Part shown: in pieces, positions 2,785 through 17,390 of the stretch
Numbering within the stretch: position 1 is the first letter of the stretch
Layout: the number at the start of each line of letters is the position of its first letter
Origin: Sphingomonadales bacterium
GTDB lineage: Bacteria; Pseudomonadota; Alphaproteobacteria; Sphingomonadales; Sphingomonadaceae
NCBI GenBank assembly: GCA_028289885.1
Contig: JAQGKX010000073.1
Coordinates: 1 to 64,000 of the forward strand
Length of the DNA stretch: 64,000 nt
Direction: 5' to 3'
Notes under the pieces: generated by a model
Seen by the model: only the letters and a program-made list of their open reading frames with translations
Database searches by the model: none
What the model was told of the DNA's origin: nothing
Position numbers and translations under genes: made by a program

Positions 2785-4305
2785 TTGCTGACTCGCCGTG
2801 ACACGCTCGTGGCGCTCGCCACCGCCGCGCTTGCTTCCGGCAGAACTTTCGCGGCACCGTCGCGGACCCGGTCCAGCGGCACCCCGTTTTCCTGGGAGTC
2901 GCTGAAGGCCCTGGCACTGGAAAATGCCAACCGACCCTGGCAGGAAGTGCCGCCGATCGGCGCGGCCAAGCTGATCTCGTTCGACGATGTCGGACGCATC
3001 GAATTTCGGGCAGACAAGGCGATCTGGCCCGGCAGCGGCGATACCGAAACGCGCTTGTTCCCCTTGCATAAAGCGGCGCAGATGCCGGTCGAAATTGCGA
3101 TCGTCGAAAACGGCTTGGCGCGTCCCTTCATATTCTCACCAGACATGTTCACAGTAAAATCCGACATGGCAGGCAGCAGGCCGACGCCGGCAGCGGGCTT
3201 CGCCGGCTTCCGCGTCATGAACGCCGGGGAAGCTGGCGACTGGCTGGCGTTTCAGGGCGCGTCCTATTTCCGTACTGCAGGCGCGCTGAACCAATATGGT
3301 CTTTCGGCGCGCGGTTTGGCGATCAATACCGGCATCGACGGTCGCGAGGAATTCCCGGTATTTACGCGCTTCTGGCTAGAACGGGGGCCGGGCGGAGTGG
3401 TAACGGTGTACGCGCTGCTCGAGGGCAAAAGCGTGACCGGGGCATACCGCTTCGTGTCGCGCAAGACGGCGGCGGGGCCGGTGCAGGATGTCAGCCTTTC
3501 GATCCACCTGCGTTCGGATGTCGCCCGGCTGGGGTTTGCGCCTCTCACGAGCATGTTCTGGTATGGAGAGGGCAACCGCGAGGCATCGATCGATTGGCGC
3601 CCGGAAATTCACGATTCGGATGGATTGGCGCTGTTCACCGGAACGGGCGAGCGCATCTGGCGACCGCTCGTCAATCCATCGCGCCCGGTGATCAACAGCT
3701 TCGTCGACAGGACACCCCGCGGCTTCGGTTTGCTCCAGCGCGACCGGCGCTTTGCCGATTATCAGGACGATGGCGCGTTCTACGAGAAACGACCGAACCT
3801 CTGGGTCGAGCCGAAAGGCGACTGGCTGAACGGCGCGGTGATGCTTTACGAAATTCCGACCCGGAAAGAGACCGATGACAATATCGTTGCCTTCTGGGTG
3901 CCAGCGGCTCCTACGAAACGCGGGGATAGTTTTACGCTTGATTACCGGCTGAACTGGACGGCTACCGATCCGGTGCCGCAGCCGATGGCGCGGGTGGTGG
4001 ATTGCTGGACCGGGACCGCGGGGCCTCCGGGGCATGAGCCGATCCCGAATGCCCGCCGCCTCGTCGCCGATTTCGTGGGGAAGACGCTCAACGGACTGAC
4101 ACGAGACAGCGGGGTTGAGGCCGATATTTCCCTTGGAAGCGGACAACTGCTCGCGCATCACGTCTATCCCGTTGCAGGGGAACCGTCGCGGTGGCGCTTG
4201 ATCATCGATGTCGCTAAGGGTCGCCAAATACCGGCCAGCTTGCGGGCCTACCTCAAACATGGTGCCGATGCCTTGAGCGAAACATTACTGTATGACCTGA
4301 GTTGA
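2785..4305 (+). CDS. glucan biosynthesis protein, OpgG/OpgD (MdoG) family
   Basis: 'SWESLKALALENANRPW', 'GFAGFRVMN', 'FQGASYFRTAGALNQYGLSARGLAINTG' and 'EEFPVFTRFW' match the MdoG family; Tat-like N-terminus 'TRRDTL'. Confidence 0.85.
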   Translation: MLTRRDTLVALATAALASGRTFAAPSRTRSSGTPFSWESLKALALENANRPWQEVPPIGAAKLISFDDVGRIEFRADKAIWPGSGDTETRLFPLHKAAQMPVEIAIVENGLARPFIFSPDMFTVKSDMAGSRPTPAAGFAGFRVMNAGEAGDWLAFQGASYFRTAGALNQYGLSARGLAINTGIDGREEFPVFTRFWLERGPGGVVTVYALLEGKSVTGAYRFVSRKTAAGPVQDVSLSIHLRSDVARLGFAPLTSMFWYGEGNREASIDWRPEIHDSDGLALFTGTGERIWRPLVNPSRPVINSFVDRTPRGFGLLQRDRRFADYQDDGAFYEKRPNLWVEPKGDWLNGAVMLYEIPTRKETDDNIVAFWVPAAPTKRGDSFTLDYRLNWTATDPVPQPMARVVDCWTGTAGPPGHEPIPNARRLVADFVGKTLNGLTRDSGVEADISLGSGQLLAHHVYPVAGEPSRWRLIIDVAKGRQIPASLRAYLKHGADALSETLLYDLS

Positions 4306-6335
4306 CCGTGCTTCGTCTTGGCTGCCTGCCGCTGCTCGTAATGCTCCCGTTTCCCGCCTTGGCCCAGACAACGCCTGCGCCCGCTGCGGTTACCGAAGAC
4401 AATGGTGAAATCGTCGTGCTCGGGACAGGCCTGCCGCTTCCCCCCGGCACTCCGGCCTATGGATCGACGACGATCGACCGCACACGCCTGACCGGCGAAG
4501 CATCGGACCGGGTTGAAAATGTGCTGAAGGATGTAGCGGGATTCCAGCAATTTCGCCGCTCGGACAGCCGGTCCGCCAATCCATCGGCACAGGGGGTCAC
4601 GCTGCGGGCGCTCGGTGGCAATGCGTCGAGCCGTGCACTCGTCCTGCTTGACGGCGTACCGCTCGCGGACCCGTTCTTCGGTTATATCCCGTTCACCGCG
4701 ATCTCCGGCGACCGATTGTCCGGCGTACGCATTACGCGCGGCGGCGGTTCAGGGCCGTTCGGTGCAGGCGCGGTTGCCGGTACGGTCGAGCTCGTCAGCG
4801 CAACCCGCGCTGACTTGCCTCACTATTCGGGCAGTGCCTTCTACGGAAGCGACGATGCCATGAGCCTGGAGGGCGCGATTTCGCCCGACATCGGCGGGGG
4901 CTATGCCACGCTGTCCGGCCGGTTCGAACGGGGCGACGGCTTTTTCACCACGCCGGTCGATCAACGTGTTCCGGCAACAGTTCGTGCGCGATATCGCGAT
5001 TGGTCCACCGGATTGCGGGCCGTTGCGCCAGTCGATGCGCAAACCGAATTGCAGTTTCGCGGGCTGATGTTCGGCGACAGTCGTACCTTGCGGTTCAAGG
5101 GCGCGGACAGCACGTCGGAGGGTCAGGACGCCAGCGTCCGCCTGATCCATCGCGGCGACTGGCAGGTCGATGCGCTCGCTTATGTGCAGGGGCGCAATTT
5201 CAGCAACAAGGTCATCAGCAGCACCAGTTCCCGCCTGACTCTCGACCAGCGTAACACGCCGTCGACGGGTATCGGCGGCAAGATCGAGCTGAGGCCGCCA
5301 GTGGGGCCGAACCATGTCCTGCGGATCGGCGTTGATGCCCGCCTCGCCGAGGGGAAGCTCTACGAAGATGCCTATGGTGCCGTCACAATTCGGCGCAATG
5401 CTGGCGGCAGGACGAGCACGACGGGCCTGTTTGTCGAGGACGACTGGACGATCGGCCGGCTGGTCCTGACTGCGGGCGTACGCGGCGACCGATGGACGAT
5501 CACCGATGGATTCCAGCGTGAGAGAAACGCGGCGGGAGTTGTGACGCTCAACCGGAATTATGCCGACCGCGACGGCATCGAGGCGACCGGACGGGCAGGG
5601 GCCTTATTCCGGGCGAACGACACCGTGGCGCTTCGTGTCGCAGGCTATACCGGTTTTCGATTGCCGACCCTGAACGAACTCTATCGCCCGTTCGTCGTCT
5701 TTCCCGTTACGACCCAGGCGAACCCTAATCTGGGACTTGAGAAACTACGTGGGTTCGAGGGCGGCGTGGATCTGACCCCGGCGCGCGGCGTGAAGGTCGG
5801 GGTCACGGCTTTCTATAATCGTTTAAACGACGCCATTGCCAATGTGACCATCAGCACTATCAGCAACAACTCGCGCGAGCGCCAGAACGTCGATGCCGTC
5901 GTCGCAAAGGGCGTCGAGTTTACCGCGGAGATAAAGCGCGGACCGTTCTCGTTCGACGGCTCCTATGCTTTCAGCGACAGTGTCGTGCGCGAGTCCAACG
6001 TATTGGCGAATCTTGATGGCAAGATTCCCGCGCAAAGTCCCCGCCATGTCGGCAGCGCGACGCTGGGCTGGACGCCCCGCGCAAACTGGTTGCTATCGGG
6101 AACCGTGCGGTATGTCGGCAAGCAATATGAGGACGACCTTCAAAAATACGTCATGCCCGATGCATTGACCTTCGATGCTGTGGCGCGAATCGGTCTCAAT
6201 CATCACGTCGCGATCATTGTTCGCGGGGAAAATCTGTTCGATGAGACAGTGATTACGCGCAATCAGGGTGATCAGTCGGGATCGATCGATCTCGGCACGC
6301 CACGGACGTTATGGGTCGGTTTTCGGTTCAACTAG
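4302..6335 (+). CDS. TonB-dependent receptor
   Basis: Signal peptide; plug 'VLLDGVPLADPFFGYIPFTAI'; barrel ending 'RTLWVGFRFN'; overlaps the upstream stop by 4 bp. Confidence 0.9.
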   Translation: MTVLRLGCLPLLVMLPFPALAQTTPAPAAVTEDNGEIVVLGTGLPLPPGTPAYGSTTIDRTRLTGEASDRVENVLKDVAGFQQFRRSDSRSANPSAQGVTLRALGGNASSRALVLLDGVPLADPFFGYIPFTAISGDRLSGVRITRGGGSGPFGAGAVAGTVELVSATRADLPHYSGSAFYGSDDAMSLEGAISPDIGGGYATLSGRFERGDGFFTTPVDQRVPATVRARYRDWSTGLRAVAPVDAQTELQFRGLMFGDSRTLRFKGADSTSEGQDASVRLIHRGDWQVDALAYVQGRNFSNKVISSTSSRLTLDQRNTPSTGIGGKIELRPPVGPNHVLRIGVDARLAEGKLYEDAYGAVTIRRNAGGRTSTTGLFVEDDWTIGRLVLTAGVRGDRWTITDGFQRERNAAGVVTLNRNYADRDGIEATGRAGALFRANDTVALRVAGYTGFRLPTLNELYRPFVVFPVTTQANPNLGLEKLRGFEGGVDLTPARGVKVGVTAFYNRLNDAIANVTISTISNNSRERQNVDAVVAKGVEFTAEIKRGPFSFDGSYAFSDSVVRESNVLANLDGKIPAQSPRHVGSATLGWTPRANWLLSGTVRYVGKQYEDDLQKYVMPDALTFDAVARIGLNHHVAIIVRGENLFDETVITRNQGDQSGSIDLGTPRTLWVGFRFN

Positions 6336-6484: not shown

Positions 6485-8146
6485 TTGACCGTGAACGCGT
6501 TAGGAACAAAAGCAAAAAAGGCCGGATACCGTGTGGGCATTTTGCTCCGCGCGTGCGTGCCTGCTGGCTTTTGCGTCATTCTTTATCTGGCGCATGAGCA
6601 TGCTCCCGAATCGTCCTATTTCGTGAGTCTGATCATCCTTGCAGCACTGTCGGGCTGGACGATCGTTCACGAACGATCCATCGACGTGCTGGCTGCCCAG
6701 CTCAACCAATGCCTGGTGAATGATGACGGGGCCGGCACGCAGCGACCCACACCAATGGCCCGGCTTGGATATGCCATCGATGCGATGGTCGTACAGGCGG
6801 GGCTTGTGCGCCACCGCCATTCGCACCGCAATCCGGTCACTGGAATGGACACGCGCGAAGCGTTGATCGAGGCGATAGACCGGCGCGCATCCGATGACCT
6901 CCATGGTTTTCTGGGCGTGATCGAGGTTTCCGATTTCGACCGGCTGTGCGCATTCGATGCGCAGAGCGGCGATCAACTGATCAAGGCAATCGCGTCGCGT
7001 ATTTCTAAAATGGTGCGATCCGATCGTGCGATTGCCCAGATCGATCGCGCGCGGTTCGCCATCTGGTTTTCAGGGACATCCCCCGCCGACGCTCGCAAGG
7101 AATTCGATGCGCTTTGCTACGCGTTACGAAACCGCGTCACGGCGGACACGATCGACCTCCTTCCCCAATTCGCCAGCGGTTTTGCCTTCGAACAAGACGA
7201 CCGTCTAAGCGCGATCGACCTTCTGGCACGAGCGATAGCCGACTTGACGATAGAGAGTGCGACGCCCGACAAGGTCGCCGAAACAAGGGATGCAGTCACT
7301 TTTGCGCGGCAGCAATTTACGTTTGAACAGGGCCTGCGGCTGGCGAGGGAGAGGCGCGAATTCGATCTCGTCTATCAGCCCTTCATTCGGCTCGACCAGC
7401 AACGTGTCTGTGGAGCGGAGGCGCTGCTGCGCTGGCGCAGCGCCGAACATGGCCTGGTTTCGCCAGCCGTCTTTATCCCCATCGTCGAGGCCATTGGCCT
7501 TGCCGAGGAGGTCGGATTATGGGTTCTCAACAGTGCCTGCGAGGAAGCCGCCCGCTGGCCCGATATCGGGCTGCATCACCTGAAGGTAGCGGTAAATCTC
7601 TCGGCTCTCCAATTCGGTCGCAACGATTTCGATACTGTGGTGCAACGCTTATTGAAGCACCACGCGATGCCGAGCAGCGCACTCGAACTCGAATTGACCG
7701 AGAGTGCGGCAGCCGACAAATCTCATGGCATTGGTGCGCTTTTCGAACGCTTGCGAGCGCTGGGTATCTCGATGTCCATCGACGATTTCGGTGCAGGCTA
7801 TTCCAGTCTCAGCTATCTGAAAAACCTGAAGTTCGACAAGCTCAAGATCGACCGGGAATTTGTCTCGGGTGTCGATCATCAGGCCGACAGCCAGGCGATC
7901 TGCCAGAGCATCATAGCGCTCGGTCGGGGGCTGGGTATCGAGGTCCTGGCCGAGGGTGTCGAGACTTGGGACGAATATGCCTGGCTCCGTCGCCATGGTT
8001 GTTCGTTCTACCAGGGTTATTATTTTTCACGTCCCCTGACGCCGCGCGATTTCGTCGCATTCGCGCGTGACACCGATCGTGTCCGGGTGTTGCTCGATGT
8101 CGGGCCAACCGCGCTGCACAGTAAAATTATCGAGAAAATAGCATGA
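6485..8146 (+). CDS. membrane protein with degenerate GGDEF and intact EAL phosphodiesterase domain
   Basis: N-terminal TM segments; GGDEF site replaced by 'IDRARF'; EAL motifs 'AEALLRW', 'VAVNLS', 'LELTES', 'DDFGAGYSSLSYLK', 'KIDREFV', 'LAEGVE' all present. Start TTG 6485 or GTG 6491. Confidence 0.9.
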   Translation: MTVNALGTKAKKAGYRVGILLRACVPAGFCVILYLAHEHAPESSYFVSLIILAALSGWTIVHERSIDVLAAQLNQCLVNDDGAGTQRPTPMARLGYAIDAMVVQAGLVRHRHSHRNPVTGMDTREALIEAIDRRASDDLHGFLGVIEVSDFDRLCAFDAQSGDQLIKAIASRISKMVRSDRAIAQIDRARFAIWFSGTSPADARKEFDALCYALRNRVTADTIDLLPQFASGFAFEQDDRLSAIDLLARAIADLTIESATPDKVAETRDAVTFARQQFTFEQGLRLARERREFDLVYQPFIRLDQQRVCGAEALLRWRSAEHGLVSPAVFIPIVEAIGLAEEVGLWVLNSACEEAARWPDIGLHHLKVAVNLSALQFGRNDFDTVVQRLLKHHAMPSSALELELTESAAADKSHGIGALFERLRALGISMSIDDFGAGYSSLSYLKNLKFDKLKIDREFVSGVDHQADSQAICQSIIALGRGLGIEVLAEGVETWDEYAWLRRHGCSFYQGYYFSRPLTPRDFVAFARDTDRVRVLLDVGPTALHSKIIEKIA

Positions 8147-8865
8147 CCCGTTCGCTTCGCATTTTGCCGCTGATCGCCGTATTGACGCTGGCCGCGTGTT
8201 CGCACGGACCCAAAAGCCATCCGGGCATGATCCAGCCGATCAGCAATCGCGTGCAATTCGAGGATGCGGTCGGCCTGCTGATGGATGGCAAGGTCAAGGC
8301 TGCCCGCGAGATGTTGGCGGTCATGGCCAAACGCGACCCCACCGATCGGCGTACAGCCATGCTCATGCAGACGCTCGAAGCCGACCCGGTTGCCGCGCTC
8401 GGCTCGCGAAACTTCAGTTACCGGGTGCAGTCGACTGACACGATGACCGGCATTTCGCAGCGCTTTCTTGCCGATCGTCTCAAGTTTTATCTGCTGGCGC
8501 GCTATAACGACATGGCGGTTCCAAAGGCACTTGTCGCCGGCCAGCTATTGCGCATTCCCGGGGTCGCACCCTCGGTTGCTCCCGCCCCGGCGCACAACGC
8601 GCGGCGTGTCCGAGACGAGCCGACACGCGACCCCGCGCCACTTGCGGCACCAAAGCCAGCCGCCAGCCCGACGACGTCCGTCGAGATGAAGCGCCGCGCG
8701 GTCCAGTTGCGTGGAGCAGGACTTGCAGCGTTGAACACCGGAAAGGTCAACCGCGCCGTTGCCTTGCTGCGACAGGCAAGCGCAGCCGACCCGACCAGTC
8801 CTGCGATCCGGAGCGATCTGGCACGGGCGGTGCGCATTCAGGTCACCGTGGCGGCGAAACGATGA
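8143..8865 (+). CDS. lipoprotein with LysM-like and TPR-like segments
   Basis: Lipobox 'LTLAAC'; 'SYRVQSTDTMTGISQRFLADRLKFYLLARYNDMAVPKALVAGQLLRIPG' is LysM-like; ATGA overlap with upstream gene. Confidence 0.75.
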   Translation: MTRSLRILPLIAVLTLAACSHGPKSHPGMIQPISNRVQFEDAVGLLMDGKVKAAREMLAVMAKRDPTDRRTAMLMQTLEADPVAALGSRNFSYRVQSTDTMTGISQRFLADRLKFYLLARYNDMAVPKALVAGQLLRIPGVAPSVAPAPAHNARRVRDEPTRDPAPLAAPKPAASPTTSVEMKRRAVQLRGAGLAALNTGKVNRAVALLRQASAADPTSPAIRSDLARAVRIQVTVAAKR

Positions 8866-10511
8866 CGCATATCGGTCGATACCGGCTTGGCGCCCCGATC
8901 GGTGAGGGCGCGATGGCGCAGGTTTTCCTGGCGCATGATCCCAGCATAGAGCGTTCCGTCGCGATCAAGGTTTTGCGGCAGGAATTGCGCGGTGATCCAG
9001 AAGTGGTGCGGCGCTTCCTGGCTGAATCACGCGCTGCCGGAATGCTATCACACGCACATATCGCGACCATCTACGACGTCGGCCAGTCCGATGGCATTCC
9101 GTATATTGCGATGGAGCATATCGATGGCGAACCGCTCGACAAGCTGCTTGAAAATCAGGGGCGGCTGACCACCGAACGCGTGTTGACGTTGTCGATGCAG
9201 ATCGCCGACGCGCTGGACTTCGCGCACAGGCACGGTGTCGTTCATCGCGATATCAAGCCATCAAATATCATGATCTGCGATGGTGGCCGCACTGCAAAGC
9301 TGCTCGATTTCGGCATCGCGCGCATCGACGCGCTCGGCGGGGCGTATGGTGAGCGCGAAGCTTGCAAGACGGTGGTGGGCCAGATCATGGGAACGCCGCG
9401 CTACATGAGCCCCGAACAGGCGATGGGGATGCCGGTCGACAAAAGCTCTGACCTGTTTTCGCTTGGATCAGTCATTTACGAGATGACCGTCGGCAAGCCT
9501 GCCTTTCCGGCGAATGGGTTGGCCAGCCTCGCCATACAAATCGCCCAAGGGTCTCCGATCCCGGTCGGCGAGGCGGTTTCCGACTGCCCGCAGGGACTGC
9601 GGTTCATCATCAAACGGCTTCTCGCCAAAAAACCTGCGGAGCGTTTCGCTAGTGCAGGGGCGGTGAAGAACGCTTTGGCGCTCGAATTGATCACCCTCCG
9701 TCAGGATCGCGACGTACGGCGGCGGGGTATCACGCTGCGGGGAAAATTATCCCTGACATTGGCTTTGACTGCAGCGGTCGCGCTTGGAGGCGGCGCCAGC
9801 CTCGTCCTTGACCGCCAGCGCTCGGCGCTTGAGACGATGGCACTGACCTCCGCCTCCTCGATGACGAACTTCGTCGCGCGTAACGTCGCGGTCAAGATGG
9901 CTGAAAATGCGAGCCTTCCGGTCGATCAGCAAGACTGGCTGCCGTTGCAGGCTTTTGCCGAAACGGCATCAGCCCAGGGGGATGTGCATTTGCTGACCGT
10001 CGCGGACGATCGCGGCTTCATCCGCGCCAGCAATCGGACCGCTCTGGTAGGGCGCCATCTCGCCAACGCTGCGACGGGGGATGTCGCGATGCTCGGTGCC
10101 GATGGCTTCCGGCTGACCCGCATGGTTCGCTATGCCGGCCATGATTTCGGGCGCGTCGATATGATGCTCGGTCGAGACGGTCTCGACGGTGCGATGCGGA
10201 CAGTCGAATTGTTGCTGCTCGCACTATCGACCTTCGTCGTTCTGGTTGTGGCGGCGGCGAGCTACGTCACCGCCCAGCAGCTTTCCTCGCCGCTTCGCCG
10301 GTTGAACAAGGCGCTGGGCGATGTGGCGGACGGTAACACCGCGTTTCGCCTGTCGCACCGGCGGCATGATGAAATTGGGAAACTGTTCGACACGTTCAAT
10401 GAACTTGTCGAAACTCTCGAGCGCGATCAGCCCGGGCAAAGGGACAATGCGGTCAGTGACGCGACCGTGATCTTCGCTCCACCCGCCGTCCCAACGCAAA
10501 AAGTCGCCTGA
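8862..10511 (+). CDS. Ser/Thr protein kinase with periplasmic sensor region and HAMP domain
   Basis: 'HRDIKPSNIMI', 'DFGIARI', 'GTPRYMSPEQ'; two TM segments; HAMP 'QLSSPLRRLNKALGDVADGNTAFRL'. Confidence 0.93.
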   Translation: MTHIGRYRLGAPIGEGAMAQVFLAHDPSIERSVAIKVLRQELRGDPEVVRRFLAESRAAGMLSHAHIATIYDVGQSDGIPYIAMEHIDGEPLDKLLENQGRLTTERVLTLSMQIADALDFAHRHGVVHRDIKPSNIMICDGGRTAKLLDFGIARIDALGGAYGEREACKTVVGQIMGTPRYMSPEQAMGMPVDKSSDLFSLGSVIYEMTVGKPAFPANGLASLAIQIAQGSPIPVGEAVSDCPQGLRFIIKRLLAKKPAERFASAGAVKNALALELITLRQDRDVRRRGITLRGKLSLTLALTAAVALGGGASLVLDRQRSALETMALTSASSMTNFVARNVAVKMAENASLPVDQQDWLPLQAFAETASAQGDVHLLTVADDRGFIRASNRTALVGRHLANAATGDVAMLGADGFRLTRMVRYAGHDFGRVDMMLGRDGLDGAMRTVELLLLALSTFVVLVVAAASYVTAQQLSSPLRRLNKALGDVADGNTAFRLSHRRHDEIGKLFDTFNELVETLERDQPGQRDNAVSDATVIFAPPAVPTQKVA

Positions 10512-11533
10512 TGGCTGCCTTGTATATTCTCAAGCTGTACGAGGAAAGCGACCTCATCCAGCCGATCGATGCCCGCCTCTTGCGCGCCGGATCGCTGCTG
10601 ATCGGGCGCGATCCCGACACCGACTGGACGATCGCCGATCCAAACAGCGAAATCTCGCGACGGCATTGTCAATTCGACGCAACGCTGCACAGCCTGACCC
10701 TGACGGTTCTGGGCGCAAACGGGGTTTATGACGGCGAAACGCAATTGCGGCTGCCCGACAATTTGCCGGTTCCGATCGACACACCGAGCAGCATCGTGTT
10801 GGGATCGTACCGCATCGTCGTCGCACCCGCCCCGCAGAACAATGCGGAACTGCATCGCGAGGCACAGACGCTCATCCTGTCGCCCCCGCTGGGCACATCG
10901 ATCGATATTCCCGGCGATTACGACGACGGCAACGAAGCGCCCCTGTCCGGCGATGGTTCGCTTCTCGGTGCGTTCTGTCAGGGCGCGGGACTCGACGTAT
11001 CGGCCTTCGTCCATGAGGATCCCGACGCGATTATGCGCCGCGCGGGGGCCGTCTATCGCCAGATGGTGCTGGGTCTTGGCGACCTGATGGTTGAGCGCGA
11101 GCGGGTTCGCCAGCAGTTTCGGATTGCCCGTACGACGATCGGCAGTTCGAACAATAATCCTTTTAAATGGGCTCCGACTCAGCGACTTGCGCTCGACCTG
11201 CTGCTTGCCGAGGAACATGGTTTTCTCAGCGGGCCTGCTGCGCTGAAGGCCTCATTCAAGGACATCAAAAAGCATCTGATCGCGACGTTCGCCGGTTTAC
11301 ACAAGTCGTTGATCCTCGCGGTGAAGACATTCGATCCTGCCGCCATCGAGCAGGCAAGCGAGGGGCAGGGATCGTTGTTGAAATCACGCTCGGCAGTGCA
11401 GATGGAAGAGGTTAAACGCCGTCACGCCTGTCTGGCCGCCCAAGTCGAGGGTGGTGAAGACGGCACGCTGAACAGCGCTTTCGTAGCGGAATATGACACC
11501 ATATCCGCAAATCTCGAAAACGATCAATCATGA
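10511..11533 (+). CDS. FHA domain protein with T6SS TagH-like C-terminal domain
   Basis: FHA core 'LLIGRDPDTDWTIADPNSEISRRHCQF...GANGVYDG'; C-terminus 'PFKWAPTQRLALDLLL...GFLSGPAALKASFKDIKKHLIATFAGLHKSL' resembles T6SS-associated FHA proteins. Confidence 0.85.
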   Translation: MAALYILKLYEESDLIQPIDARLLRAGSLLIGRDPDTDWTIADPNSEISRRHCQFDATLHSLTLTVLGANGVYDGETQLRLPDNLPVPIDTPSSIVLGSYRIVVAPAPQNNAELHREAQTLILSPPLGTSIDIPGDYDDGNEAPLSGDGSLLGAFCQGAGLDVSAFVHEDPDAIMRRAGAVYRQMVLGLGDLMVERERVRQQFRIARTTIGSSNNNPFKWAPTQRLALDLLLAEEHGFLSGPAALKASFKDIKKHLIATFAGLHKSLILAVKTFDPAAIEQASEGQGSLLKSRSAVQMEEVKRRHACLAAQVEGGEDGTLNSAFVAEYDTISANLENDQS

Positions 11534-12306
11534 CCGGATCGGTTACCAAATCAACGCAGATCGACCGTTTCGAGACTGCCTCGCGGACCCATGTCGGCAT
11601 CGTGCGCGAAACGAACGAGGACCGCGTGCTCGCGCAGCCGCAATCGGGACTGTGGGCGATTGCCGACGGTATGGGGGGGCATAGCCTTGGCGATCGGGCG
11701 GCGGCTTTGGTCGTGTCGGCGCTTTCCGCCATCGAACCATCGGACCAGGGAGTACGGGAAGCACTGGAGTCCGCCAACGCGTCCATACGCGCCATGGGCC
11801 GAAAAGCAGAGGTAACTTGTGGATCGACGGTCGCGGGACTGTGCATTTCACAGGCAAGTGGTTTCGTTTTCTGGGTCGGGGACAGCCGCGTCTATCGTCT
11901 GCGAGACGACCGCCTGACGCGCCTGACCCGCGACCATAGTTTCGTCCAAGAACTTAGGGATGCGGGCGTCTTGACTGATGTCCAAGCGCGGGCGGACCCC
12001 CGGAGCAACATCATCACCCGAGCGGTAGGGATCGCGGATATGATCGCGGTGGATATCACGCCGATCGACGTGCGCAGTGACGATTTGTACCTGATCTGCT
12101 CCGACGGCCTCAGCGATCTGGTGGACGATGCAACGATACTGAGCTTGCTCGACAGGCGACAGCCAGAGGACAGTGCCGATAAACTGGTCCGCGCAGCACT
12201 GGCTGCCGGGGGAGCCGACAACATCAGTTTGACGATCATCGCCGACCGGGCTTCGATGAAGCAGGCCGACCCTGAAGTTCCATCCCCGGATGGTGCAGGA
12301 ACTTAA
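11530..12306 (+). CDS. PP2C-family Ser/Thr phosphatase (PppA-like)
   Basis: 'TNEDRVL', 'WAIADGMGGHSLGDRAA', 'WVGDSRVYRLR', 'LICSDGLSDLV', 'GGADNISL'. Confidence 0.93.
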   Translation: MTGSVTKSTQIDRFETASRTHVGIVRETNEDRVLAQPQSGLWAIADGMGGHSLGDRAAALVVSALSAIEPSDQGVREALESANASIRAMGRKAEVTCGSTVAGLCISQASGFVFWVGDSRVYRLRDDRLTRLTRDHSFVQELRDAGVLTDVQARADPRSNIITRAVGIADMIAVDITPIDVRSDDLYLICSDGLSDLVDDATILSLLDRRQPEDSADKLVRAALAAGGADNISLTIIADRASMKQADPEVPSPDGAGT

Positions 12307-12348: not shown

Positions 12349-13011
12349 ATGACAATCAAGGCAATCTTCTTCGATATTGACGGTACTCTGGTCGACAGCA
12401 ACGATTTTCATGTGCTCGCATGGGAAGAAGCCTTTGCAGGCGTCGATGCCCGCTTTGATCGGCAAGTGGTCCATGATCAGATCGGCAAGGGGACGGACAT
12501 GCTGGTGCCGACGCTGTTGCCCGATCTTGACGAGGAAGCCATCGATGCGCTCGGTGAGAGTCATGGCGCGGTCTTTAAATCGAAGTTCCTCAATCGGGTC
12601 CGCCCGTTTCCGATGGCGCATGACCTGCTGGCGCGGGTTCAGGCTGACGGCATGTCGGTCGTATTCGCATCGTCCGCAGGCAAATCGGAACTCGACCATT
12701 ATCTCGACTTGCTCGATGCCCATGATCTTGTTGCCGCAAGCACGAGCGCTGACGACGTGGCCAACACGAAGCCTGCCCCCGATATCTTTGCCGTGGCCCT
12801 GAAGAAAATAGACCTGGCTCCCGACGAGGTCCTCGTCGTCGGCGACACGCCCTATGATGTCGAAGCGGCGGGAAAATGCGGGATTACCGCGGTGGCTGTT
12901 CGCTCGGGCGGGTTTACCGACAAGGCCTTGCGATCGGCGGGCGCGGTCGAGATTTACGACGATGTCGCCGCTTTGCTCGCGGACTTTGAGAGTTCGCCGC
13001 TGAAGGGTTAA
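12349..13011 (+). CDS. HAD-superfamily hydrolase
   Basis: 'FFDIDGTLVDSNDFH', 'VFASSAGKSELDHYL', 'VVGDTPYDVEAAGKCG'. Confidence 0.9.
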   Translation: MTIKAIFFDIDGTLVDSNDFHVLAWEEAFAGVDARFDRQVVHDQIGKGTDMLVPTLLPDLDEEAIDALGESHGAVFKSKFLNRVRPFPMAHDLLARVQADGMSVVFASSAGKSELDHYLDLLDAHDLVAASTSADDVANTKPAPDIFAVALKKIDLAPDEVLVVGDTPYDVEAAGKCGITAVAVRSGGFTDKALRSAGAVEIYDDVAALLADFESSPLKG

Positions 13012-13988
13012 GCCCTTTGCCGACCGGACAGATACTCGCTTCGCTGCCAGATGATCAGGGCGGGGACGCCGATGATCAGGTCTCTCGCGCGCTTGAGCAA
13101 CGAGACTGCAACCGCTGTCGTGGGCGGCAGGCCGAATAATGGTCCGATCAGCGCATAGGCCGCTTCTTGGACGCCGACCGCGCCCGGGATGAAAAAGGCG
13201 ACGCTGCGTAGCGTAAAGATCAAGGCTTCGAGCGCAATGATCGCCCAGAGCGGAGCCGATATCCCCATGAATTTTAACGCAATCCAAGCACCCGCCGCGC
13301 TGGCGATCCATGCCAGCAGGTTGAAGACGAAGGCCGCGATGACGCGCCGCGGTTCGCGGTAGATAGCGTCCAAAAGAGCGCGGACCGTCGCCAGTGCACC
13401 AGCCGATCCGGGCAGGAAGCGTGTCGCCAATCCGGTAGCAAGGCGAAGCATCGGGCGTTGCGCAAAGGCGAGCACGGCAACGATCGCCGCCATGCCCCCC
13501 GTACCGAGCAAAGCAAGCGGCATGATGCTCGCGCGCACAGGCTGGTCGGCGAGGATAAGCAGCAGGACCGCGACACCCGCGAGCGTGAACAGAAGTTGCG
13601 AGGCGAGTTCGGTCGTCATGTCGGCAATCATCGATGCGTAGACGACCGGCATGGCAACGCGCCGCTCGGTCAGCGTCCGCGCTCCGACCACCAACCCACC
13701 CAGTTGTGAGAATGGCAGGACGTCGGTCGCCGCCTCGCGCGTGGTGCGCGCCCAGATGAAGAGAGGCAATCGGTGGAGCGACTCGCCCGGCGCGACCGCC
13801 AGCCACGCCGCGCCCAGCAGTGCCAGCACCCCGATCGACCATGCCACGAAGGCCAGCATCCCGATCCAGCCAACCGTCGCCACCGCAGCCAGAACCTGCT
13901 GCGCGCCGATCGCACCGATCGTCCATCCGGCGACGATCAGGCCGACGACCGTCGCCAACAGGAAACCAAGCCGCGCGTAGTTTTTCAT
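13008..13988 (-). CDS. hpnL: hopanoid-associated membrane protein HpnL (LPG synthase TM-region family)
   Basis: Polytopic; 'REAATDVLPFSQLGGLVVGARTL', 'FFIPGAVGVQEAAYALIGPLFGL'; sits in hpn cluster. Confidence 0.85.
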   Translation of the reverse strand: MKNYARLGFLLATVVGLIVAGWTIGAIGAQQVLAAVATVGWIGMLAFVAWSIGVLALLGAAWLAVAPGESLHRLPLFIWARTTREAATDVLPFSQLGGLVVGARTLTERRVAMPVVYASMIADMTTELASQLLFTLAGVAVLLLILADQPVRASIMPLALLGTGGMAAIVAVLAFAQRPMLRLATGLATRFLPGSAGALATVRALLDAIYREPRRVIAAFVFNLLAWIASAAGAWIALKFMGISAPLWAIIALEALIFTLRSVAFFIPGAVGVQEAAYALIGPLFGLPPTTAVAVSLLKRARDLIIGVPALIIWQRSEYLSGRQRA

Positions 13989-14818
13989 GGCCGCAGGTCG
14001 GCAAAGCGAGCAAGGGTGATGCCGTGTTCACGCACACCTTTGCGTGAGGCGATCAGCGCGTCATACTCATCGCGATACTGATAGCCCGGAGCATGGCCGG
14101 GCCATGTATCGGTCATCGCCGGATGAGTGTAAATTTCGGTTATCCCGTCCGGAAGCCGCTCGATCAGACCCGCGAACCGCGCGGTGTTCATCGCGCCGCT
14201 CCACGCCAGGCCGAACACCTGATCGGGCGTCGCGAAGCCCGCTGCCCGCAGCCGTCTGCGCATCAGCCTTGCCCACAGGATCGCGGGATCGCGGTACAAT
14301 GTCGCATCGGGCTCGACAGCCGACAGCACGGCGCGCGGCTCGACCGGCGCGCGCGCTGCTTTCAGCCCATGCCGCTTGCCGCTTTTCAGCATCAACGAGG
14401 CGATTACCGGGTGCAGGTGAAAATGCTTGTGCGCGTTGACGTGATCGAGCGGCAGGCCGGTCGCGGCAAAAGCGGCAAACTGCGCCTCGATTTCCGCTGC
14501 AAGCTGACGTCGCGCTTCGGGTGCAAAAGTCATGGCGATTGCCGAGCGCACCATGTCAGTCCGAAAATTGCCTGTAGTGTCGACCAGTCGCGAGACCTGT
14601 TCGGGCGGCAGCGTCGGGCGGCCCTCGACCAGTACCAGATGCAGCCCGACTCCAAGAGTTGGCATCCGCCGCGCGCGTTCGACGGCATCGGCAACCGCCT
14701 TGCCGCCGACCATCAGACTTGCAGCCGTAAGGATGCCCTCACGATGCCCGCGCTCGACTGCTTCATTGACCGCCACGTCCACGCCGAAATCGTCGGCGGT
14801 GACGATCAGGGTTTTCAC
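13985..14818 (-). CDS. hpnK: hopanoid biosynthesis protein HpnK (ChbG/YdjC-like deacetylase)
   Basis: 'LIVTADDFGVDVAVNEAVERGHREGILTAASLMVGG', 'DHVNAHKHFHLHPVIASLML'. Confidence 0.92.
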   Translation of the reverse strand: MKTLIVTADDFGVDVAVNEAVERGHREGILTAASLMVGGKAVADAVERARRMPTLGVGLHLVLVEGRPTLPPEQVSRLVDTTGNFRTDMVRSAIAMTFAPEARRQLAAEIEAQFAAFAATGLPLDHVNAHKHFHLHPVIASLMLKSGKRHGLKAARAPVEPRAVLSAVEPDATLYRDPAILWARLMRRRLRAAGFATPDQVFGLAWSGAMNTARFAGLIERLPDGITEIYTHPAMTDTWPGHAPGYQYRDEYDALIASRKGVREHGITLARFADLRP

Positions 14819-16251
14819 CGGGCAATTTCGACGGTCTTGCGCCGTCGCAGGAAGTCGAAAAACTCGACGCCTTCGCGCAGGCGGCGCTTCATCATGTCCC
14901 AGTCGCGGAGCATTTCGGACACGATTTCCCAGATTTTCGTCGGGCGGAAATAGAAGCGTTTGTAGAACTCCTCAACCTTGTCGAAGATGACGCTGGCGGG
15001 AAGGTGGGGATAACTGAGCTGGGCGATCTGATTGCCGCCGTCGGTCAGCAGATGGTCCGAACCGTCAAACCAGCCATTCTCGGTCGCCTGCTTGTACAGG
15101 AACGTCCCAGGGTATGGCGCGGCCAGCGACACCTGAATCGTGTGGGGGTTGATTTCCTTGGCGTAGAGGATGGTTTCCTCGATCGTCTCGGTGGTTTCGC
15201 CGGGCAGGCCGAGGATGAAGGTGCCGTGGATGACGATGCCGAGCGCGTGGCAATCCTTGGTGAACTGCCGCGCGACGTCGGTGCGCAGGCCCTTTTTGAT
15301 GTTGTGCAGGATCTGCTGGTTGCCGCTTTCATAGCCGACGAGCAGCAGGCGCAGGCCATTTTCCTTCATGATCTTCAGCGTCTTGTACGGCACGTTGGCC
15401 TTGGCATTGCACGACCATGTGACGCCGAGCTTGCCGAGTTCGATCGCCAGTTCCTCGACCCGCGTGGTGTGGTCGGTCAGCGTGTCGTCGTCGAAAAAGA
15501 TTTCCTTCGTCTGCGGGATTTCACGCTGGACGTATCTCACTTCCTCGATGACATGCGCGATCGAGCGCGTGCGATAATTGTGGCCGCCGACGGTCTGCGG
15601 CCAAAGGCAGAAGGTGCAGCGGCTCTTGCAACCGCGCCCGGTGTAGAAGCTGACATAGGGGTGGAGGAGGTAGCCGCCGAAGTATTTCTCAATCGTCAGG
15701 TCGCGCTTGTAGATTGGGCTGACGAACGGCAGCGAGTCCATGTTTTCAAGGACCGCGCGGTCACGGTTGTTGACGATTTCCCCGGCGTCGTTGCGCCACG
15801 AAATGCCATCGACTTCGGACAGAGGCATGCCGTTGGCGATGTCGAGGATGGTGAAGTCGAATTCGTTGCGGGCGACGAAATCGATTGCCGTGGAGGCTTC
15901 CATGGATTTCTGCGTTTCGACGGCGACCTTTGCCCCGATCAAGCCGATCATGATGTTCGGGTTGCGCGCCTTGATCAGTTCGGCGGTGTGGACGTCCTGC
16001 CGGAACGACGGCGTCGAGGTGTGCAGGATGACGAGGTCGCGGTCGTCGACTTCATGCTTGATGTCGTCCCAGCTCTGGTCGTGGGCGGGGGCGTCGATCA
16101 GCTTCGATCCTTCGACCAGCGCCGCGGGCTGGGCGAGCCATGTCGGATACCAGAACGACTTCACTTCGCGCTTCATCTGGTAACGGGCACCGGCGCCGCC
16201 GTCATAGCCGTCGAACGAGGGTGCCTGAAGAAAAAGGGTGCGGAGTGTCAT
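14815..16251 (-). CDS. hpnJ: hopanoid biosynthesis radical SAM protein HpnJ
   Basis: 'TLFLQAPSFDGYDGGAGARYQMKREVKSFWYP', radical SAM 'GRGCKSRCTFCLWPQ'. Start reset to ATG at 16251. Confidence 0.95.
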   Translation of the reverse strand: MTLRTLFLQAPSFDGYDGGAGARYQMKREVKSFWYPTWLAQPAALVEGSKLIDAPAHDQSWDDIKHEVDDRDLVILHTSTPSFRQDVHTAELIKARNPNIMIGLIGAKVAVETQKSMEASTAIDFVARNEFDFTILDIANGMPLSEVDGISWRNDAGEIVNNRDRAVLENMDSLPFVSPIYKRDLTIEKYFGGYLLHPYVSFYTGRGCKSRCTFCLWPQTVGGHNYRTRSIAHVIEEVRYVQREIPQTKEIFFDDDTLTDHTTRVEELAIELGKLGVTWSCNAKANVPYKTLKIMKENGLRLLLVGYESGNQQILHNIKKGLRTDVARQFTKDCHALGIVIHGTFILGLPGETTETIEETILYAKEINPHTIQVSLAAPYPGTFLYKQATENGWFDGSDHLLTDGGNQIAQLSYPHLPASVIFDKVEEFYKRFYFRPTKIWEIVSEMLRDWDMMKRRLREGVEFFDFLRRRKTVEIAR

Positions 16252-17390
16252 TGAACATTGTCCTGGTGCGTCGAGAGCCTGCCCGTCGGATCGACTGTAA
16301 ATGCTGTGCCACGCCAATCAACCGCTCGCCCGAAGAATGTCCAGAAAAACAGGACGAAAGACAGAAGGTCGCGCGGTGCGATCCATAGCAGCGGTGCCGT
16401 CCGGTTGCCAGTGGTGCGATCGACAAGCAATGCGATCGCCGTCCGCGCGAGGAGAGCCGCCATCAAAATCGCGGTGGCGATCAGCCATAGGCGCGAAAGC
16501 GTCGCCCCTAGTAGGGAGAGGGGAAGGGGATGGAGCACGATGCTGCCGATGAATCCCATTGGATCGAGTTGCGTGATCGTCCGGTTCCAGCGCAGTTCCT
16601 GCCGGACCAGCGCGGCAAGGCTCGCTTCCGTACAGGCGTGGGTGAGCAACAGGTTGGGCAAGGCCACGGTTTTGCCGCGCTGACGGACCGCGTTCCCGAT
16701 CGCATAATCATCGGCAAGCAGATCCGCAAAGGCATCGAGGCCACCAATGGCATCGAGCGTCGTCCGGCGCAGCGCGATCGTCGATCCCATGCACGGCGTA
16801 GCGAGACCAAGGGCCGTGCCGAGCAGCACACTCGGCAGGAAATGCTGGCTGATTCCCATCGCCGCCAACTTCGACCAGCCCCCTGCATCGCCGCGTCCGT
16901 GATACAGGCAGGTGACGGCTCCCACGCCCGGCGCGGCAAGCGCGGCCGTGACTGTGGCGAGATAGTTGGCACGCACGGCCATGTCGCTGTCGCTCAGGAT
17001 GAGGACCGGATGGCGGGCATGGGCGACCATGGCTATCAAGTTTGACACTTTCGCATTGGTGCCGCGCGCGCTGCTTTCCACCGTCAACACGATATCCGCC
17101 TGCGGATAGAGCGTCTGTAACGCTTCAACGACCGACACCGCCGGATCGGTCCTGCTGTGCACGCCGCAGATCAACTGGATTTCGCCCGCGTGATCCTGCT
17201 GCAGGAATGTGGATAGATTGGCCAGAAGCTGCGGCTCTGCGCCGTATAGCGGTTTCAGGATCGTGACTGCATCGTGTCGTGCTTCCACTGGGCGCACATG
17301 GCCGATCCGCCACAGTCGGACCGCCGCGATCATCAGGCACAACGTCCCGACTGCCGAGAGAAAGAGGAGCACGGAGCCGATAAATTGCAT
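16248..17390 (-). CDS. hpnI: hopanoid biosynthesis glycosyltransferase HpnI
   Basis: GT2 fold 'VTILKPLYGAEPQLLANLSTFLQQD', 'LILSDSDMAV', 'LRWNRTI'; ATG overlap with hpnJ. Start set to MQFIGS; ORF extends to 17444. Confidence 0.9.
   Translation of the reverse strand: MQFIGSVLLFLSAVGTLCLMIAAVRLWRIGHVRPVEARHDAVTILKPLYGAEPQLLANLSTFLQQDHAGEIQLICGVHSRTDPAVSVVEALQTLYPQADIVLTVESSARGTNAKVSNLIAMVAHARHPVLILSDSDMAVRANYLATVTAALAAPGVGAVTCLYHGRGDAGGWSKLAAMGISQHFLPSVLLGTALGLATPCMGSTIALRRTTLDAIGGLDAFADLLADDYAIGNAVRQRGKTVALPNLLLTHACTEASLAALVRQELRWNRTITQLDPMGFIGSIVLHPLPLSLLGATLSRLWLIATAILMAALLARTAIALLVDRTTGNRTAPLLWIAPRDLLSFVLFFWTFFGRAVDWRGTAFTVDPTGRLSTHQDNVQ

Follow-up and report, generated by a model that had tools for sequence, protein, structure and literature searches.

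What does the regulatory set of a type VI secretion system (T6SS) do where no such system is found? This question is raised by an operon in the genome of a Sphingomonadales bacterium (assembly GCA_028289885.1; 84% complete, 211 contigs), located in a stretch of 64,000 nucleotides (contig JAQGKX010000073.1, positions 1–64,000; hereafter the window). At positions 6485–12306 of the plus strand it comprises five open reading frames (ORFs) coding, in this order, for an EAL protein, a LysM-TPR lipoprotein, a Ser/Thr kinase, an FHA protein and a PP2C-type phosphatase. Comparative sequence analysis makes it rather likely that a T6SS threonine-phosphorylation switch has been repurposed in this stand-alone operon to govern the breakdown of cyclic di-GMP (c-di-GMP). 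The parts are known, and their combination and T6SS-free existence are not described in the literature searched; the search, whose scope excluded most subscription papers, yielded no description of the five-gene operon. The features of the locus are as follows:

6485–8146, plus strand: predicted EAL phosphodiesterase with a non-canonical GGDEF domain (Pfam EAL, 6.9e-69)
7043–7057, plus strand: degenerate GGDEF motif DRARF, whose first two positions are Asp-Arg in nearly all relatives
8143–8865, plus strand: LysM-TPR lipoprotein (Pfam LysM, 4.4e-6; TPR_19, 1.9e-7; lipobox LAAC)
8862–10511, plus strand: Ser/Thr kinase of the Hanks type, PknB-like (Pkinase, 2.1e-44), with a C-terminal HAMP domain
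9810–10202, plus strand: periplasmic sensor domain of the kinase, probably single-Cache-like (secondary structure of the model; borderline match in a relative)
10464–10466, plus strand: codon of kinase Thr535, candidate phosphothreonine docking site and sole strongly conserved residue in the variable part of the kinase tail
10511–11533, plus strand: FHA protein (FHA domain at residues 30–80, disordered linker at 110–147, T6SS_FHA_C domain at 157–329)
10868–10870, plus strand: codon of Thr120 in the FHA linker, candidate phosphosite ([K/R/Q]T[M/L][V/I][L/M] motif)
11530–12306, plus strand: PP2C-type phosphatase (Pfam PP2C)

Adjacent genes overlap by 1–4 bases (at 8143–8146, 8862–8865, 10511 and 11530–11533), in agreement with an earlier note on this DNA that had described five coupled ORFs, and the protein identities given there match firm Pfam assignments for all five. 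When 84,980 species genomes were scanned with the FHA alignment, 72 loci were retrieved, and the addition of the same-genus genome G006 (100% complete, 3 contigs), which carries the same operon with an FHA protein of 77% and a kinase of 74% identity, gave a total of 73; the scan is based on short conserved peptides, and distant relatives may escape it. The full gene order was found on one strand with short gaps or overlaps at 57 of these loci, a recurrence far from chance, and every complete locus starts with the EAL gene. The remainder consists of two T6SS loci (L161, L162), a short fragment (L164), six loci without a PP2C gene and others that are mostly cut by contig ends. The possibility that L164, located on a short contig, is a T6SS locus was rejected based on its tree position and an adjacent PP2C gene, and it probably is a fragment of the module. 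The hosts are mostly Sphingomonadales, with a few Caulobacterales and Hyphomonadaceae, and include the genera Sphingomonas, Sphingobium, Novosphingobium, Sphingopyxis, Stakelama, Qipengyuania, Allopontixanthobacter, Parasphingorhabdus, Phenylobacterium and Hyphomonas. When 385 genomes from across the class were searched with profiles, no additional clear case turned up beyond these groups. The gene order is thus kept in most relatives, which answers the objection foreseen in the earlier note that unrelated genes might replace the EAL and LysM genes there. Within 10 kb of the module no conserved sixth gene family was detected, just antisense shadow ORFs and rare families, and the unit therefore consists of five genes. 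Over 51 loci, the distances among EAL proteins correlated with those of the kinase (0.87), the FHA and LysM proteins (0.85 each) and the PP2C (0.82), as expected from sequence if the EAL gene is inherited together with the other module genes; such a correlation indicates co-inheritance and is no proof of interaction.

Among 401 genomes of the family, 46 contain a match to PF20232 and 21 contain TssC (PF05943). The module was identified in 22 genomes, 19 of which showed no TssC, TssK, TssM or DotU; among these 19, 12 reach a completeness of 98% or more and two consist of a single contig. The sheath, baseplate and membrane-complex genes by which a T6SS is recognized (TssC, TssK, TssM and TssL) are thus missing from these T6SS-free genomes, including DotU/TssL, and Hcp was absent from all seven module genomes tested for it. 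No T6SS was found within 10 kb of the module loci, and a role as accessory module of a nearby T6SS was rejected on this ground. The earlier note had conceded that a T6SS cluster just beyond the window would make the operon an ordinary accessory module; neither its own genome nor the complete G006 yielded a T6SS core gene, and the claim withstood this genome-wide check.

The operon shares with T6SS threonine phosphorylation a membrane Ser/Thr kinase whose catalytic residues are intact, an FHA protein with a T6SS_FHA_C domain and phosphothreonine-binding residues, and a PP2C encoded alongside; it differs in not being encoded with, and controlling, a T6SS. The FHA protein matches T6SS_FHA_C (PF20232, 1.2e-34) and the Pfam FHA domain, and exceeds the cut-off of the NCBIfam TagH model (TIGR03354; 158.8 versus 120.25 bits), which confirms the affiliation to the T6SS FHA family proposed from the sequence. 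Its predicted phosphothreonine-binding residues R33, S49, H52 and N70 are invariant in 69 sequences, and the T6SS_FHA_C domain is strongly conserved, with an NNPFKW block and an invariant T208. In the PP2C, D46, G47, D192 and D230 are invariant. The kinase, termed a sensor-HAMP kinase in the earlier note, is a Ser/Thr kinase with an N-terminal catalytic domain (residues 7–268), a transmembrane segment (approximately 298–316), a periplasmic domain, a second transmembrane segment (approximately 448–466), a C-terminal HAMP domain (470–520) and a disordered tail (524–549), and its residues K36, D130, N135, D149 and the activation-loop T170 are invariant in 69 sequences. A Foldseek search with the structural model matched the kinase fold to PknB. 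Since it returned kinase domains only, the assignment of the periplasmic domain as probably single-Cache-like draws on the secondary structure of the model and on the match of a homologous kinase (L196) to sCache_3_2, which at 28.1 bits lies slightly below the cut-off of 28.4. The LysM protein has both the lipobox cysteine and the LysM domain of a LysM lipoprotein, and its Cys19 is invariant (conservation 1.0).

The start codon of the EAL gene is uncertain (TTG at 6485, or GTG at 6491 two codons downstream). According to hydropathy, the protein carries N-terminal membrane segments at residues 17–35 and 43–61. Its catalytic residues E312 (of the EAL motif), N371, E403, D433, D434, K454, E490, E493 and Q510 each have a conservation of 1.0 in 62 sequences, whereas the GGDEF domain is a weak Pfam match (25.5 bits against a cut-off of 23.8) whose motif is replaced family-wide by x-D-R (D187 in 100% and R188 in 95% of the 62 aligned sequences). 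The active-site motif GG(D/E)EF of diguanylate cyclases was not found in the aligned EAL proteins, and cyclase activity is therefore not expected, although the domain is retained. Both halves of the earlier observation, a preserved EAL and a degenerate GGDEF domain, thus extend across the family. A GGDEF-like domain ahead of an intact EAL domain is shared with membrane GGDEF-EAL phosphodiesterases that have an inactive GGDEF domain, but the nearest curated models (DibA, GepA and DosP) all scored far below cut-off, and the module protein differs by its family-wide x-D-R signature and by being encoded beside a kinase-FHA-PP2C set.

A possible connection between kinase and FHA protein lies in the kinase tail, where residues 524–549 are disordered in the AlphaFold2 model. 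Thr535 is conserved in 96% of the aligned tails while its neighbors vary, the next best conserved residue being the C-terminal Ala (83%), and 68 of 69 tails contain the pattern T-x-[IVLF], as compared to a mean of 21.7 and a maximum of 32 in shuffled sequences. FHA domains commonly read phosphothreonine and favor a hydrophobic or acidic residue at position +3. The conserved hydrophobic residue of the tail motif sits at +2 rather than +3, and the fit to this preference is suggestive only, so that Thr535 is a candidate phospho-docking site for the FHA protein. A second candidate, Thr120, lies in the linker of the FHA protein (residues 110–147, likewise disordered in the AlphaFold2 model); its motif is present in most sphingomonad linkers, including at least 90% of group A1. 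The module kinases frequently end with Ala-Ala (46 of 70; 10503–10508 in the window), or with Val-Ala (eight more). Ala-Ala ends resemble C-degrons of ClpXP, and these termini may reflect regulated turnover.

Trees of the kinase and FHA protein link the module to a sphingomonad T6SS subtype with two tssC copies (G116:C4, G061, G165 and G220; loci L065, L068–L070, L077, L078, L083 and L084). Its clusters contain a LysM protein, an FHA protein and a HAMP-containing homolog of the module kinase with approximately 43% identity over nearly the full length, and in three loci (of G116, G061 and G220) also a PP2C. Unlike in the module, these genes are scattered through the cluster and no EAL gene was found there; the kinase tail is longer, with a motif T[LV][IVT]G near its C-terminal end that resembles the one around Thr535, and the FHA linker is different. 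The FHA tree placed the module and the two-tssC subtype in one clade (the starred one), with the other T6SS FHA proteins outside. The kinase tree also joined the two with a support of 100, far from other PpkA-like kinases, and did not reject a single module clade (p-AU 0.69). According to the simplest history suggested by these sequences, a regulatory cassette was separated from the T6SS on a single occasion and became linked to an EAL gene.

Judging from these comparisons, the module shares ancestry with the PpkA-Fha-PppA pathway (Pseudomonas, Serratia and Agrobacterium types) and most probably derives from it. Common to both are a membrane Hanks kinase, a T6SS_FHA_C protein, a PP2C, envelope-facing sensing and recognition of phosphothreonine by FHA; in contrast, the module has no T6SS and no TssL substrate, contains the EAL phosphodiesterase and the LysM lipoprotein as fixed members, and has its candidate phosphosites in the kinase tail and the FHA linker. 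With mycobacterial PknB-GarA/FHA signaling it shares a kinase fold nearest to PknB and FHA proteins as kinase-linked adaptors, but the kinase lacks PASTA domains and instead has a Cache-like periplasmic domain, a HAMP domain and a phosphothreonine-like tail motif.

The switching of T6SS by kinase, FHA protein and PP2C (reviewed in PMC10482370) and the binding of Agrobacterium Fha to phosphorylated Thr14 of TssL (PMC3953482) provide the precedents from which the following mechanism is borrowed. The periplasmic domain of the kinase, together with the LysM lipoprotein contacting peptidoglycan, would sense an envelope or cell-wall cue, which the HAMP domain would relay to the cytoplasm. The kinase would then phosphorylate itself at the conserved Thr of the tail and, in most members, also the FHA linker at Thr120. 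By reading these phosphothreonines, the FHA domain would bring the FHA protein, along with the T6SS_FHA_C domain, to the membrane kinase or release it from there, and would thereby alter the activity of the co-encoded, membrane-anchored EAL phosphodiesterase, and thus local c-di-GMP, until PP2C resets the switch. The wiring predicted in the earlier note, from lipoprotein and sensor via a phospho-switch to c-di-GMP hydrolysis, fits this anatomy. We infer the signal, the phosphorylation events, the direction of control, the output of the FHA protein and its coupling to the EAL protein; the least certain step is the output, for which control of the EAL protein is favored over another partner of the T6SS_FHA_C domain. 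Several points weigh against repurposing for c-di-GMP control. Operon membership is no proof that the FHA protein or kinase acts on the EAL protein, and phosphorylation, binding and phosphodiesterase activity are all predicted. The FHA linker Thr is absent in some members from Hyphomonadaceae and Phenylobacterium (Caulobacterales). No PP2C was found beside the FHA gene in six loci (L122, L147, L148, L155, L158 and L159), where another phosphatase may take over or dephosphorylation may be lost. Finally, the direction from T6SS to module is deduced by parsimony from an FHA tree that is unrooted, and the kinase tree gives no root. That the operon represents a distinct signaling class, in which a T6SS-derived phosphothreonine switch directly controls a membrane c-di-GMP phosphodiesterase upon the state of peptidoglycan or envelope, appears to us evenly balanced.

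The alternative that survives best, although we regard it as tentative, is that the FHA protein acts on an unrelated cytoplasmic or membrane partner of its T6SS_FHA_C domain, such as envelope or cell-wall machinery, and that the EAL protein works upstream or alongside, for example if the kinase is tuned by c-di-GMP or by the DR-type GGDEF domain. The strongly conserved T6SS_FHA_C domain must bind something now that its T6SS partners are gone, and the uniform retention of the degenerate GGDEF domain suits a regulatory binding domain. However, the EAL gene is the only gene added to the cassette and leads all complete loci, and the conservation of its catalytic residues is as anticipated for an enzymatic output. 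Far less probable is an accessory role in which the module regulates a T6SS located at another place in the genome, as the membership of its FHA protein in the T6SS_FHA_C and TagH families might suggest. Three module genomes (G116, G075 and G154) do carry T6SS loci elsewhere, and there such regulation could still hold, but each T6SS contig has its own separate FHA_C gene; by a simple test, module and TssC do not occur together more often than expected (3 of 401 genomes versus 1.15 expected; Fisher p = 0.10). Because 19 of the 22 module genomes, among them the 12 nearly complete ones, have no T6SS core gene, this is refuted as a general role. Of the two options left in the earlier note, control of a distant T6SS is thus dropped as a general role, and repurposing is supported by the trees, purifying selection and the conserved phosphosite-like threonines. 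That the module is a decaying remnant of a lost T6SS and has no function today, as the homology to T6SS regulators and the six loci without PP2C might suggest, is the least probable explanation and was rejected given dN/dS ratios (nonsynonymous to synonymous substitution rates) of 0.02–0.24 among near relatives in all five genes, which indicate purifying selection, intact ORFs, invariant catalytic residues in approximately 70 species, and an added EAL gene inherited together with the rest.

Repurposing for c-di-GMP control would tie eukaryotic-like Ser/Thr phosphorylation to c-di-GMP in a concrete and testable way, although these two regulatory layers are seldom joined, and the single conserved Thr of the kinase tail offers a direct experimental handle. 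Independent of the output, an FHA protein regarded as T6SS-associated and its kinase/phosphatase pair persist, conserved and intact, without a T6SS in many alphaproteobacterial species, and the automatic labels TagH/TIGR03354 and PF20232 are therefore misleading there. A role of TagH beyond T6SS is known from the control of haemolysin in Vibrio cholerae (PMC8993066). Such modules escape surveys in which a cluster of five T6SS genes is demanded (PMC2660368).

Other T6SS-free sets with a T6SS_FHA_C protein were also encountered. Sphingosinicella-type loci (L037, L038, L039 and L043; L039:6810–18285) encode a PP2C, a Ser/Thr kinase, an FHA_C protein, OmpA and TPR proteins, an oxidoreductase with FAD, cNMP-binding and 4Fe-4S domains, and an FHA-containing multihaem cytochrome; no TssC was found in their genomes. 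Elsewhere in the class, L196, L197 and L198 (G589, G761 and G462) combine FHA_C, DotU/TssL and PP2C genes, and LysM and HAMP kinase genes lie nearby, in genomes where neither TssC nor TssM was found; this set is a piece of the T6SS membrane complex without the machine. L167 and L168 were considered as distant modules and rejected, representing instead a different DotU-FHA-PP2C set. L041 and L042 (G347 and G389) contain an FHA_C gene in genomes without TssC, with no kinase or PP2C homolog detected within 10 kb. Conversely, G387:C417 has TssC but no PF20232 match, and is apparently a T6SS without an FHA_C protein, or an incomplete assembly. So either the FHA_C protein departed from the T6SS repeatedly, or its name is too narrow for it. 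Counting the module, at least three uses of a T6SS_FHA_C protein outside T6SS would be represented here.

Upstream of the operon (2785–6335) the window encodes an OpgG/MdoG periplasmic glucan protein and a TonB-dependent receptor, which are not kept beside the module in relatives. Downstream, on the minus strand (13008–16317), lies a set that resembles hopanoid genes by eye, consisting of an LPG_synthase_TM family protein (the one member with a Pfam assignment), a deacetylase-like and a radical SAM protein.

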